From assembly GCA_035275405.1 (NCBI GenBank), contig DATEMU010000003.1:992001-1056000 (forward strand): a stretch of 64,000 nt of DNA. The letters are read 5' to 3'. The notes under the pieces were generated by a model. The model worked only from the letters and a program-made list of their open reading frames with translations, searched no databases and had not been told where the DNA came from. The position numbers were made by a program, and so were the translations under genes. The stretch comes from Phycisphaerae bacterium (GTDB lineage: Bacteria; Planctomycetota; Phycisphaerae; UBA1845; UTPLA1). This document shows positions 7,876-11,767 of the stretch, piece by piece; position 1 is the first letter of the stretch; every line of letters starts with the position of its first letter.

Positions 7876-9900
7876 TCATTGCCTCACACGTACGGGCAGA
7901 ATCACCATCGTCTTGTCGTGCCACTGTAACCGCCGCTGAATCGTGAACGCCGTCTGGTTGTGCAATAGTCGCTGATACCAGCGATCCCGCTGGAAAATAA
8001 GTTGGCCGGAAAAAAAGACGCATCGCGAAAATTCCCTGCCGATCGCCAGACAGAGTTCCTCAGCCTCACTGACGACTTCCGTGCCGACGGAACACCGGAA
8101 ATCCGCCGCGAAACCCAGGCGCTGCGCCAGTTCGACATATTTCTTGAGCGCGGCTTCGGTACCGGACCTCAGGGCATCAATCTCCTCTCCTCCCTTGAAC
8201 GCGCCGGAATCGATAACTCCCACCGATACAAAGATAAAGTTCTTGAACTGATGCGGAAAGGAGCGAATCACGTGGAGCACCGTATGCACGCCGATGCCGC
8301 CATACGAGCCCACCAGAATAACGGCCGTAGGGTTCGCGGGGTCCGGTTGACGGTCGATCACCCCTGCCGGCGCCGGTATTTTTTCGATCGGCCCCAGGTC
8401 GCTATCCAGCCGTGTCAAGTGCGATTGCACGCTGGCATAGTGTCGACGGATCATGAAACACGTCGCGATGAATGCGCCGGTGACAAGCAACGTAATCCAT
8501 CCTCCTTCGAGAAACTTCTCGTAAATCGTCACCATGAGAATCGTCAGGCACATCGTCAGCCCAATGATGTGAATGGAAATCTTCCGCTTCCAAAGCCGGT
8601 TTTTTCGGCGTTCCCCAAAGTAAAGGTGGCACATGGAGGTCTCAGTCATCGAAAAAGTGATGAACACATTGATACTGTACATGACAACGATCTGGCGAAC
8701 GTCACCGTGTGTGTAAAAGAGCGCAGCGAGAGCGGTGAGCCCCATCAACAGAATTCCGTTTTGCGTGGTGAGTCGGTCCGACAACGCCGCAAAACGACGG
8801 GGTACCCACGAGTCGTTGGCCATGTTCGCCAGAACCCGTGGGCCGTCCACGAATCCGGCCTGCGCCGCGACGACGAGGATCGCGCCCTCGGCGAGCATCG
8901 TCAGGATGACAAACGTCGACCCCAGCGGCACGACGCCGACGAATTTCTCGGCGAGCACCGCATTCATGGTCTTTCCCTCGACCGCCGTAACCCCCCAAAG
9001 CAAATAACAAAGCAAGAGACCCGACGCCGTAAATGCCAGCGACGCGGCCATGTAAAACATGGTTCGCTTGCCGGTCTGCACCTTTGGATCGCGCATGATG
9101 GCCAGGCCGTTGGAGACGGCCTCGATGCCCGTATAGGTGCCCCCGCCCAGGGAATATGCGTGCAGGAATAGCAGCAGCATCCCCCCCATACCCAGGGTGG
9201 TCCATCCGCCGGCAAATCCGCTCCCGGCCGCATGAAAAGTTTCCGGCAGTTGTGGCGCATGCGCGATCACGCCGCCTGCGATCAGGACAACATGAGTTAC
9301 CACAAAGAGCATAAAAATGGGACTGAGTATCAACACGGATTCCTTCACACCGCGAAAATTCAGCACGATGAGCCAGACGATAAGGACGACTTCGGAGGGC
9401 AGCTTCCAAACGTGCCAGTGCGTGGGCAAAAAGCTGAACAGCGCATCGCCCGCAGCGGCGATGGAAATCGTGATCGTCAGCACATAGTCCACGATCAAAG
9501 CGCTGCCGGAAACGAGACCGGCCCGTTGGCCAAGGAGCTTGGAGGCGACGACGTATCCGCCGCCTCCATGAGGAAAATGCTCGATGACGCGGCTGTAGGC
9601 AATGGCGATGATGATGACGGTGGAGGCCATCACAACGGCCAGACCAAGGGCGAGATAGGTGTGTCCGCCCAATGTCTTGAACGCCTCTTCCGGCCCGTAA
9701 CACGAGGACGACAGTCCGTCCGCGCCGAGGCCGACCCACGCCAGGAATGGAATCAGCGAGAGTCGGTGAAAGAGGGAACGATCCGCGAGATCGCGCGGTC
9801 GCCCGATAAGGCGACGGCCCATGCGCGCAAGGATCCCCGGCGAATCGGTTTTATAAGAATTTATTGAAGGACGACCGCCCGACGAACTGTTACCGTCCAC
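7876..9900 (-). CDS. kimA: KimA-type potassium/APC-superfamily importer
   Basis: About 674 aa from a GTG at 9900, which has GGAGG 9 nt upstream; ATG 9822 is the alternative. The N-terminal RRLIGRPRDL, then GADGLSSSCYGPEEAF (residues about 59-74), then HFPHGGGGYVVASKLLG and GSALIVDYVLTITISIAAAGDA match KimA/YdaO, the Bacillus high-affinity K+/H+ symporter of the APC superfamily. About 12 transmembrane helices follow, then a soluble C-terminal domain (last roughly 160 residues, starting near TAVILVGSYGGIGVH) resembling the universal-stress-like domain of KimA. KimA is known to be turned off by c-di-AMP, and this gene has a c-di-AMP riboswitch in its leader (9961-10090), which independently supports the call. 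The protein starts with a hydrophilic Ser-rich tail of about 25 residues. Confidence 0.87.
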   Translation of the reverse strand: MDGNSSSGGRPSINSYKTDSPGILARMGRRLIGRPRDLADRSLFHRLSLIPFLAWVGLGADGLSSSCYGPEEAFKTLGGHTYLALGLAVVMASTVIIIAIAYSRVIEHFPHGGGGYVVASKLLGQRAGLVSGSALIVDYVLTITISIAAAGDALFSFLPTHWHVWKLPSEVVLIVWLIVLNFRGVKESVLILSPIFMLFVVTHVVLIAGGVIAHAPQLPETFHAAGSGFAGGWTTLGMGGMLLLFLHAYSLGGGTYTGIEAVSNGLAIMRDPKVQTGKRTMFYMAASLAFTASGLLLCYLLWGVTAVEGKTMNAVLAEKFVGVVPLGSTFVILTMLAEGAILVVAAQAGFVDGPRVLANMANDSWVPRRFAALSDRLTTQNGILLMGLTALAALFYTHGDVRQIVVMYSINVFITFSMTETSMCHLYFGERRKNRLWKRKISIHIIGLTMCLTILMVTIYEKFLEGGWITLLVTGAFIATCFMIRRHYASVQSHLTRLDSDLGPIEKIPAPAGVIDRQPDPANPTAVILVGSYGGIGVHTVLHVIRSFPHQFKNFIFVSVGVIDSGAFKGGEEIDALRSGTEAALKKYVELAQRLGFAADFRCSVGTEVVSEAEELCLAIGREFSRCVFFSGQLIFQRDRWYQRLLHNQTAFTIQRRLQWHDKTMVILPVRVRQ

Positions 9901-9908
9901 CGTCGAAA

Positions 9909-9933
9909 ACCTCCGAAATCCGCCATGAGAGGT
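9909..9933 (-). promoter_or_regulatory. Possible SD-sequestering hairpin of the riboswitch expression platform
   Basis: ACCTC (9933-9929) can pair with GAGGT (9913-9909), which includes the Shine-Dalgarno of the GTG start. GAGGAG at the end of the aptamer (9966-9961) could compete for the same ACCTC. This suggests translational rather than terminator control; there is no T-tract. The perfect palindrome CGCGAATTCGCG (9944-9955) lies between. Inference from base pairing by eye only. Confidence 0.35.
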
Positions 9934-9960
9934 AGATCTCTGGCGCGAATTCGCGAGATT

Positions 9961-10090
9961 CTCCTCTTCGACGCCTACGAGGTTAGCTGACGGACTCGGG
10001 CAGAAGATTTGCCCTACGGTCGCTACGGCGACCGATTCGCCCCAGGGAAATCGGGTCCCCCGTTCTCGCAATTACGAGATTCGGCGAGCA
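9961..10090 (-). promoter_or_regulatory. ydaO/yuaA-type c-di-AMP riboswitch
   Basis: Read on the minus strand, this leader carries the conserved blocks of the ydaO aptamer in order: CGCCGAATC (P1 5' side), AACGGGGGACCC, TGGGGCGAAT, a GGTCGC/GCGACC hairpin, TAGGGC...GCCCGAGTCCG, and GTCAGCTAACCTCGTAGGCG closing P1 with GGCG (9975-9972), then GAAGAGGAG. The class binds two c-di-AMP molecules and generally switches downstream genes off; K+ importers and cell-wall hydrolases are its usual targets. It sits about 60-190 nt upstream of the KimA-type gene on the same strand, so gene and RNA support each other. The in-frame TTG at 10071 lies inside the aptamer and is not a start. Confidence 0.93.
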
Positions 10091-10107
10091 ATGGCTATAT
10101 AGCTGCA

Positions 10108-10135
10108 ACTGTAGGCCGGAGAACCAAAAAGTCAA
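10108..10135 (-). promoter_or_regulatory. Candidate promoter for the riboswitch-kimA transcript
   Basis: Minus strand: TTGACT at 10135-10130, a 16-nt spacer, TACAGT at 10113-10108. It predicts transcription starting about 10 nt before the aptamer P1 stem, which is a sensible geometry. Confidence 0.4.
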
Positions 10136-10192
10136 TTGTTGGCAGAATGGCCCGGAAAAACGTCGAATTTCGGGAATGCGTGGCCGGCGTCG

Positions 10193-11563
10193 CTAGCGGT
10201 TGTTGTTCGACGAGCTGCCCGAATTGCCGAAGCGGCTGCCGCTTTGGCGAGATCCAAATCGGCTTCCGCCGGACCGGCTGCTACCCGAGCCAAAGCTGCT
10301 GTTGGAACCGCCGAAGCTGCCTCCGGATCCAAAACTGTTGGACCCGCCGGACCGGTTGTTGTTACCGAATCCTCCCCGGTTCCCGAATCCCCCGCCGCCG
10401 AAGCCCGAATCATTGAATCCGCCGGTGCCGCCGAATTGGCCGGAGTCGTTGTCATTGCGACCGCTGCGCGACCGCGAACGATTCGACGACCCTCGCATAC
10501 TATTCGACCGCGACGAACGCATCGAACTATCGCCGCTCGACGACAACCCCCCGCCGGATGAGGAGCCGCCGCCCTTGCTACTGCCACTATATGGTCCGCC
10601 CACAACCTTGGGCCGTTTCGCTCGGGCCTCTGCGAAGATCTTTTCCTGACGCGCCTGGGCCAGTGCCGGATACTGCTCCAGATGGGCCTCGAGATAGGTC
10701 GCCCGATCAGGCATCGACGGCCCCGAAATGGCCGCCGTCTCCTGGTAACGCCGTTCAAAGACAGCGTGCTCCTTCAGAAAGGTCACCAACTCGGTCGGGG
10801 GGAGAAGCAGGTCGTGCGGAAGCACCTGGCGATGCTGCGCATACCAGTAATCAACGGCGCCGCGAAACCCGTCGGGGTTCCGCTCGCGCTCCCATTGGTC
10901 CACGACCTGCGCCGCCAGCTCGGGATACTGATCCGCATTCGCCAGGACGTACGCCGCCTGTTCACCGGTCGGGAAGTGAAGACCGGGTGTGCCCACGGGC
11001 TCTTTCGCCTCGATCGCACTGCTTGGCACAGTCTGGATGACCGCGCGGAGCTGCGTCCCCGCCGCTTGGTCGCTTGCCAACCGCTCGTGCCAGGCCTTGG
11101 CGGAGGCCGCCGACTGCTCTGCCCGTTTCAGGCCGACTTGATCGGCCATTTGCCGGACCGTGTCGCGCTCTTTCGCATACATCTGGCCCAGCAGGCCGGC
11201 GGCGACGATCCGGTCTCCCACCTTCTTCAACAGCGGCGGGTTCGCCAGCAGCAGGCGCGCCGCCTCCGCCGCCGTCGGGGGATACTCTGACAGGAGCTTT
11301 TCCGCGGCGCCCGGGGTTGAAATGTCCAGGTACTTGAGCCGTACCAATAGCTCTGGATGCTGTGCTGCCTCCAGCACCGCGTTGCGAATCTCCGCCGGCT
11401 GGGCCAATAGCTCATCGAGTAGCTCTCGGGCCGATCCACTCGCGGCGCTGGCCTGCGAATCGAGGCTGGACTTGAGATAGAACAACTCCTGCGCCTCGAC
11501 CGTGCCCACGAAAAGCCCAGCCAAGACTATCACAACAAGGTTCGCAGATGGTCGGTTTTTCAT
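10193..11563 (-). CDS. Secreted protein with long Gly/Ser/Asn/Phe-rich tail
   Basis: 456 aa from the ATG at 11563, which has GGAGG 8 nt upstream. The signal peptide (about 1-24) ends near VGTVEAQ. Residues about 30-310 are helical and rich in Ala, Glu and Leu, with repeated segments built around 'hP.LL..L.' and 'YP.LA' (ADQYPELAAQ, EQYPALAQA), reminiscent of DUF3300-like secreted proteins without clear homology. From about residue 313 the chain becomes low complexity: Gly/Ser blocks, an SR-rich patch, then GGFG, GFGNRGG, NNNRSGG and FGS repeats to the end. Such FG/RG-rich tails suggest an intrinsically disordered surface or matrix protein. Function unknown. On the minus strand a perfect TATAAT (11654-11649) lies about 85 nt before the ATG. 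Confidence 0.75.
   Translation of the reverse strand: MKNRPSANLVVIVLAGLFVGTVEAQELFYLKSSLDSQASAASGSARELLDELLAQPAEIRNAVLEAAQHPELLVRLKYLDISTPGAAEKLLSEYPPTAAEAARLLLANPPLLKKVGDRIVAAGLLGQMYAKERDTVRQMADQVGLKRAEQSAASAKAWHERLASDQAAGTQLRAVIQTVPSSAIEAKEPVGTPGLHFPTGEQAAYVLANADQYPELAAQVVDQWERERNPDGFRGAVDYWYAQHRQVLPHDLLLPPTELVTFLKEHAVFERRYQETAAISGPSMPDRATYLEAHLEQYPALAQARQEKIFAEARAKRPKVVGGPYSGSSKGGGSSSGGGLSSSGDSSMRSSRSNSMRGSSNRSRSRSGRNDNDSGQFGGTGGFNDSGFGGGGFGNRGGFGNNNRSGGSNSFGSGGSFGGSNSSFGSGSSRSGGSRFGSRQSGSRFGNSGSSSNNNR
10196..10560 (-). repeat. Low-complexity coding repeat (Gly/Ser/Asn/Phe)
   Basis: Imperfect short repeats in DNA and protein encode runs of GGFG, GSGG, NNR and SRS in the tail of the secreted protein. 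On the plus strand they appear as CCG/CCGAA-rich repeats. Such stretches tend to change length between strains. Confidence 0.6.
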
Positions 11564-11767
11564 GACAGTCGCCTCCGGGGCCGGCCTCAAGCGATGAACG
11601 AAAAAAGGCCGATCCTTGCATAGACCGGGCGCGCGAACCGGCACCGATATTATATACACATCGGCCGCCCGCCGGTCGCAGAACCATAAGGATCAATCGC
11701 CCGCGACTGCTTGCCACCCTGTACGTTTTGAAACCCAGCCGCGCGGGCCCAACAGGAAACCTCACTC

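Follow-up and report, generated by a model that had tools for sequence, protein, structure and literature searches.

A ydaO-class c-di-AMP riboswitch ahead of a kimA-type potassium importer gene in a planctomycete, with a probable translational expression platform

The stretch of DNA analyzed here (64,000 nucleotides of a Phycisphaerae genome, hereafter the window) carries on its minus strand a kimA-like gene (7876..9900), which encodes a K+ importer of the APC superfamily with a cytosolic C-terminal domain and begins with a GTG codon at 9900, with the sequence GGAGGTT located 7 nt upstream. The gene lies directly behind a c-di-AMP riboswitch aptamer of the ydaO/yuaA class (9957..10096, same strand), at a distance of 56 nt from aptamer to start codon. 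On the other side of the aptamer, a promoter-like site, TTGACT-N16-TACAGT (10108..10135, minus strand), was identified by a consensus scan with 9/12 matches (0.2 expected in shuffles), and transcription from this candidate promoter would begin just 5′ of the aptamer. The interval 9909-10135, which the initial annotation had assigned to the riboswitch, spans the region from this site to just before the start codon. The next gene upstream is 10193-11659(-), whose product has no Pfam match and carries a long, low-complexity C-terminus rich in Gly, Ser, Asn, and Arg.

A phmmer search of the PDB with the importer matched a single distinct solved sequence, Bacillus subtilis KimA (PDB 6s3k, E=2.7e-60), and Pfam assigned the AA_permease_2 family; the C-terminal HMMER stretch is weak when taken alone. 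Residue roles reported for KimA (PMC10284832) were mapped onto an alignment of 77 relatives, in which the four residues of the K+ site (D36, Y43, T230, and Y377) as well as the two of the gate (Y118 and N237) are invariant and also retained in the window's protein, in agreement with the KimA-type importer proposed from the sequence at the outset. The nearest relatives are found in Planctomycetota metagenome-assembled genomes (69% identity for L007, 63% for L008 and L009), which bears out the planctomycete origin surmised in the initial annotation, and L007 has the same leader sequence as L139, which comes from a member (G399) of the same family as the window's genome. The aptamer sequence of L009 likewise recurs in G115, a genome of the same phylum. 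Among the c-di-AMP contacts, R337, H579, N580, and Q581 are kept and S582 is replaced by Thr; since most of the c-di-AMP-binding residues are kept, c-di-AMP may also inhibit the window's KimA protein directly, besides acting on its RNA. A gene that combines an RNA switch with most of the KimA c-di-AMP pocket makes control at the RNA and protein levels comparable within one system.

Across the alignment, R337, which contacts a c-di-AMP phosphate, is rarer in KimA proteins encoded behind a riboswitch than in those without one (3/15 versus 33/62; Fisher p=0.024), as is the second phosphate contact, Q581 (1/15 versus 26/62; Fisher p=0.014), both comparisons being uncontrolled for phylogeny and including some loci without upstream DNA. 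KimA genes could thus be subject to either RNA control or protein control and rarely to both, with the window's gene among those that would have both.

A whole-window Rfam cmscan returned two matches, one tRNA and RF00379 (ydaO/c-di-AMP). The latter covers the full model (1-134/134) at 10096-9957(-) and scores 100.6 bits (gathering score, 38; E=1e-22), and the five conserved ydaO blocks described earlier are all present on the minus strand in the order first stated. A structure alignment of 24 compact planctomycete copies was scored for the RF00379 helices and the loop-tail pseudoknot. Standard pairs fill 92.6% of its cells (83.0% when shuffled), 17/33 pairs are changed on both sides (11.1 when shuffled), and the covariation score reaches 0.321, compared with 0.141 for shuffled and at most 0.127 for slid versions. 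Two-sided changes occur in 7/7 pseudoknot pairs, formed in the window by the loop strand PK5 (TCTTC, 10003..10007) and the tail strand PK3 (GAAGA, 9965..9969), while the other helices are 68-100% paired. The same loop-tail complementarity is present in the 108-nt ydaO crystal construct (PMC5393176). The covariance-model score and the pairings kept in relatives, both named beforehand as decisive, therefore confirm the element as a genuine copy of the known c-di-AMP riboswitch class, far above chance, and its ligand would accordingly be predicted to be c-di-AMP.

The organism was presumed in the initial annotation to use c-di-AMP, and a search for a DacA/DisA-type protein indeed located a putative CdaA-like diadenylate cyclase encoded in its genome (L006:6328-7242, minus strand), with 130.3 bits for the DAC domain (PF02457) and E=2e-40 to a diadenylate cyclase in the PDB. 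Its motif reads LHDMGV instead of LHDGAV, a departure that we count against the mechanism proposed below. The cyclases of the window's order (L006, L158-L187) mostly carry LHDMGV or LHDLGV and keep the motif Asp and the RHR motif, and other planctomycetes often carry LHDGAV, which includes the catalytic DGA. The genome further encodes a PgpH-like 7TMR-HD protein (a 762-residue frame) and three DHH proteins. At the level of the phylum, DAC proteins were found in 361/392 genomes and the riboswitch in 46/392; in the window's order, 21/114 genomes carry the riboswitch. The frames downstream of 51 riboswitch copies in the phylum sample were grouped as TrkH-like (20), KimA-like (14), permease+Usp (6, a KimA-like architecture), KUP (2), and SPFH/Band_7 (3 or 4, L114 being uncertain), with the remaining copies left without a group, and Pfam confirmed TrkH, K_trans, AA_permease_2+Usp, and Band_7 in the representatives tested. 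Judged by these downstream genes, the ydaO class in Planctomycetota serves mainly K+ uptake, within a regulon that comprises TrkH, KimA, KUP, and KimA-like permeases.

In the window's leader, the minimum-free-energy (MFE) fold forms a long hairpin in which the sequestering strand S5 (GAGAATCTC-G-CGAA, 9950..9963, minus strand) pairs with 9917-9905, the 3′ arm (9905..9917, minus strand) that contains the Shine-Dalgarno sequence GGAGG (9914-9910), leaving the latter buried. Folding of growing prefixes revealed an alternative: before the Shine-Dalgarno sequence is included, AGAGG (9967-9963) pairs with CCTCT (9932-9928, the anti-pseudoknot strand A3 on the minus strand), and once it is included, the sequestering hairpin wins. 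The sequestering hairpin reaches -41.7 kcal/mol, compared with -34.6 kcal/mol when helix A is forced, and it is the minimum-energy state of the isolated leader with or without the pseudoknot tail. This counts against the mechanism proposed below, in that the ON state must be kinetic or ribosome-aided. Blocking the tail raised the cost of opening the Shine-Dalgarno sequence in some relatives but not all, the mixed signs likewise counting against the mechanism. In two other KimA leaders (L107 and L110), the pseudoknot tail itself overlaps the Shine-Dalgarno sequence of the gene, a simpler direct masking design.

An intrinsic terminator, the mark of a transcription-terminating ydaO platform, was sought by a scan that returned 0 terminator-like sites in 9800-10300. 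A real riboswitch that acts on transcription nevertheless retains a minor share of the probability, whether through Rho in the untranslated leader or through a missed terminator, given that termination of transcription is how the riboswitches of B. subtilis kimA and B. thuringiensis kdp work (PMC6488665, PMC9960051), that kimA relatives from other phyla (L015, L026, L027, and L061) show T-tract hairpins behind the aptamer when inspected by eye, and that a block of translation can in itself expose RNA to Rho. Apart from the empty scan, what makes this reading unlikely is that the Shine-Dalgarno sequence lies in a species-specific helix, a feature superfluous for a switch that acts on transcription alone.

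The evidence for that helix comes from a swap test on 12 KimA-type leaders (mean identity 0.65, maximum 0.79), in which strands at fixed positions were exchanged between species, a permutation scheme that does not fully remove shared ancestry. S5 pairs better with the Shine-Dalgarno region of its own species than with swapped ones (-16.1 versus -12.7 kcal/mol, p=5e-5), and the same holds for PK3 and A3 (-11.6 versus -10.2 kcal/mol, p=5e-4). The pseudoknot, used as a positive control, gave p=0.006, control pairings gave p=0.34 to 0.83, and the result persists after dropping the window's leader. Two observations count against it: leader L217, which lies outside the set of 12, did not favor its own partner strands, and a shuffle test of the tail against downstream sequence was weak (4/63 leaders with p<0.05; Fisher p=0.013). 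The same swap test rejected direct pairing of the tail with the kimA Shine-Dalgarno sequence (p=0.34) and CCTCT (A3) as its mask (p=0.83).

The initial annotation had proposed that the Shine-Dalgarno sequence is masked by the aptamer's ACCTC. Its translational part stands, in that a platform without a terminator points to translation, whereas the mask that covaries is the strand 9963-9950 and not ACCTC. Direct masking of GAGGT by ACCTC (9983-9979) is indeed suggested by a complementarity of ~6 bases, but the ACCTC strand is near-invariant because it is paired inside the aptamer, its pairing with the Shine-Dalgarno sequence is no better within than between species (p=0.46), and ligand binding would keep it in the aptamer and so free the Shine-Dalgarno sequence, the opposite of an OFF switch; we regard this reading as highly improbable.

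Taken together, the riboswitch in the kimA-type leader is probably a translational OFF switch. In the c-di-AMP-bound state, the aptamer pseudoknot would retain the tail GAAGA (9969-9965), so that strand 9963-9950 would be available to the Shine-Dalgarno region 9917-9905 and, by pairing with it, would block ribosome entry. Without ligand, the tail would instead pair with CCTCT (9932-9928) in a hairpin that, according to the prefix folds, would form earlier in transcription and cross the sequestering helix, so that the Shine-Dalgarno sequence would stay free. Because the tail-A3 and S5-Shine-Dalgarno helices cross, they are mutually exclusive, which would give the translational OFF switch, and high c-di-AMP would lead to less K+ import. 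The direction of switching is a prediction, with a very slight chance that the same aptamer turns expression ON; the literature treats the known c-di-AMP riboswitches as OFF switches (PMC9960051), and both the fold model and the nature of the target, a K+ importer, suit the OFF direction.

A whole-genome search recovered the riboswitch of the window and one second copy outside it (G000:C15:770904-771070(-), 63.2 bits; equivalent to L005:8905-9071(-), L002), which precedes a gene for a 659-residue SPFH/Band_7 (flotillin-like) protein. Six relatives also carry the riboswitch before SPFH/flotillin-like genes (L143, L147, L149, L152, L222, and L223), and six copies of this type, when rescanned, scored 42-63 bits, above the gathering score. 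In 6/7 SPFH leaders of the order, an ATG lies 5-8 bases after the pseudoknot strand CGCTGGAG and opens a mini-ORF (4-27 codons) that stops short of the main gene, whose start is located ~160-290 bases downstream; in the seventh (L147), TTG occupies the ATG position. Shuffled leaders showed this layout in 0.55 cases on average and reached six in 0/5000 trials. The CGCTGGAG strand looks like a Shine-Dalgarno sequence for the mini-ORF, and PK5 can pair with it in 7/7 leaders, with GGAG at least partly covered in most of them. These leaders can be read as placing translation of a leader ORF under c-di-AMP control, in a layout like that of the Mycobacterium tuberculosis B12 and Mbox riboswitches. 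Four further SPFH-type-like copies (L146, L148, L219, and L220) had no target of a known group within 1.5 kb. Three leaders with the same aptamer type (L142, L144, and L145, the last two preceding TrkH) contain a conserved 9-codon frame, V-K-E-H-D-x-x-L-S-stop, which starts inside the pseudoknot strand and may encode a leader peptide or may merely reflect the RNA pairing.

Among the papers we searched, none links c-di-AMP riboswitches with SPFH proteins, and we found one published precedent for a translational ydaO platform, a reporter study (PMC9960051). We would tentatively suggest, at somewhat less than an even chance, that the planctomycete leaders hold two translational designs for which the class offers little or no precedent, namely, a three-strand exchange at the kimA Shine-Dalgarno sequence and the use of PK3 as the Shine-Dalgarno sequence of a mini-ORF before SPFH genes. 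By the latter, c-di-AMP would control a leader peptide and, perhaps via Rho, a membrane-organizing protein that is not known as a c-di-AMP target. The relatives analyzed here supply comparative evidence on the possible workings of a translational ydaO platform.

Riboswitch-based control of K+ uptake by c-di-AMP is known mainly from Gram-positive bacteria. The element in the window belongs to this known class, and Planctomycetota are absent from the phyla named in the class statement of PMC6488665. Since kimA was formerly called ydaO (PMC9960051), the arrangement with a KimA gene is not unusual for the class, and the B. subtilis ydaO/kimA riboswitch (RF00379) shares the aptamer class, the target gene family, and the K+ logic. 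It differs in using an intrinsic terminator, whereas here none was seen, the Shine-Dalgarno sequence lies in a covarying hairpin, and the host is a planctomycete. The B. thuringiensis kdpFABC riboswitch, of the same class, also represses a K+ uptake system (PMC6488665), but through transcription termination and with Kdp in place of KimA. The M. tuberculosis B12 and Mbox riboswitches precede a small upstream ORF, as does the SPFH-linked second copy, and for Mbox a translational platform together with Rho-dependent termination has been reported (PMC11260477, PMC12810186); these have other ligands and other aptamers, and the likeness concerns the L002-type leaders, not the element in the window. 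Similar in its proposed mode of action is the Corynebacterium glutamicum nlpC c-di-AMP riboswitch, which according to reporters acts on translation and for which the full-length mRNA level was reported to be equal with and without c-di-AMP. There, the proposal is that CTCC switches partners, from an upstream GGAG in the ligand-free state to the GGAG of the ribosome binding site once ligand is bound (PMC9960051). The nlpC target is a cell-wall peptidase, whereas the target here is a K+ importer, and in the planctomycete leaders covariation with the Shine-Dalgarno sequence and pairing with the tail fall to two different strands (S5 and A3, respectively), with comparative statistics in support of both helices.
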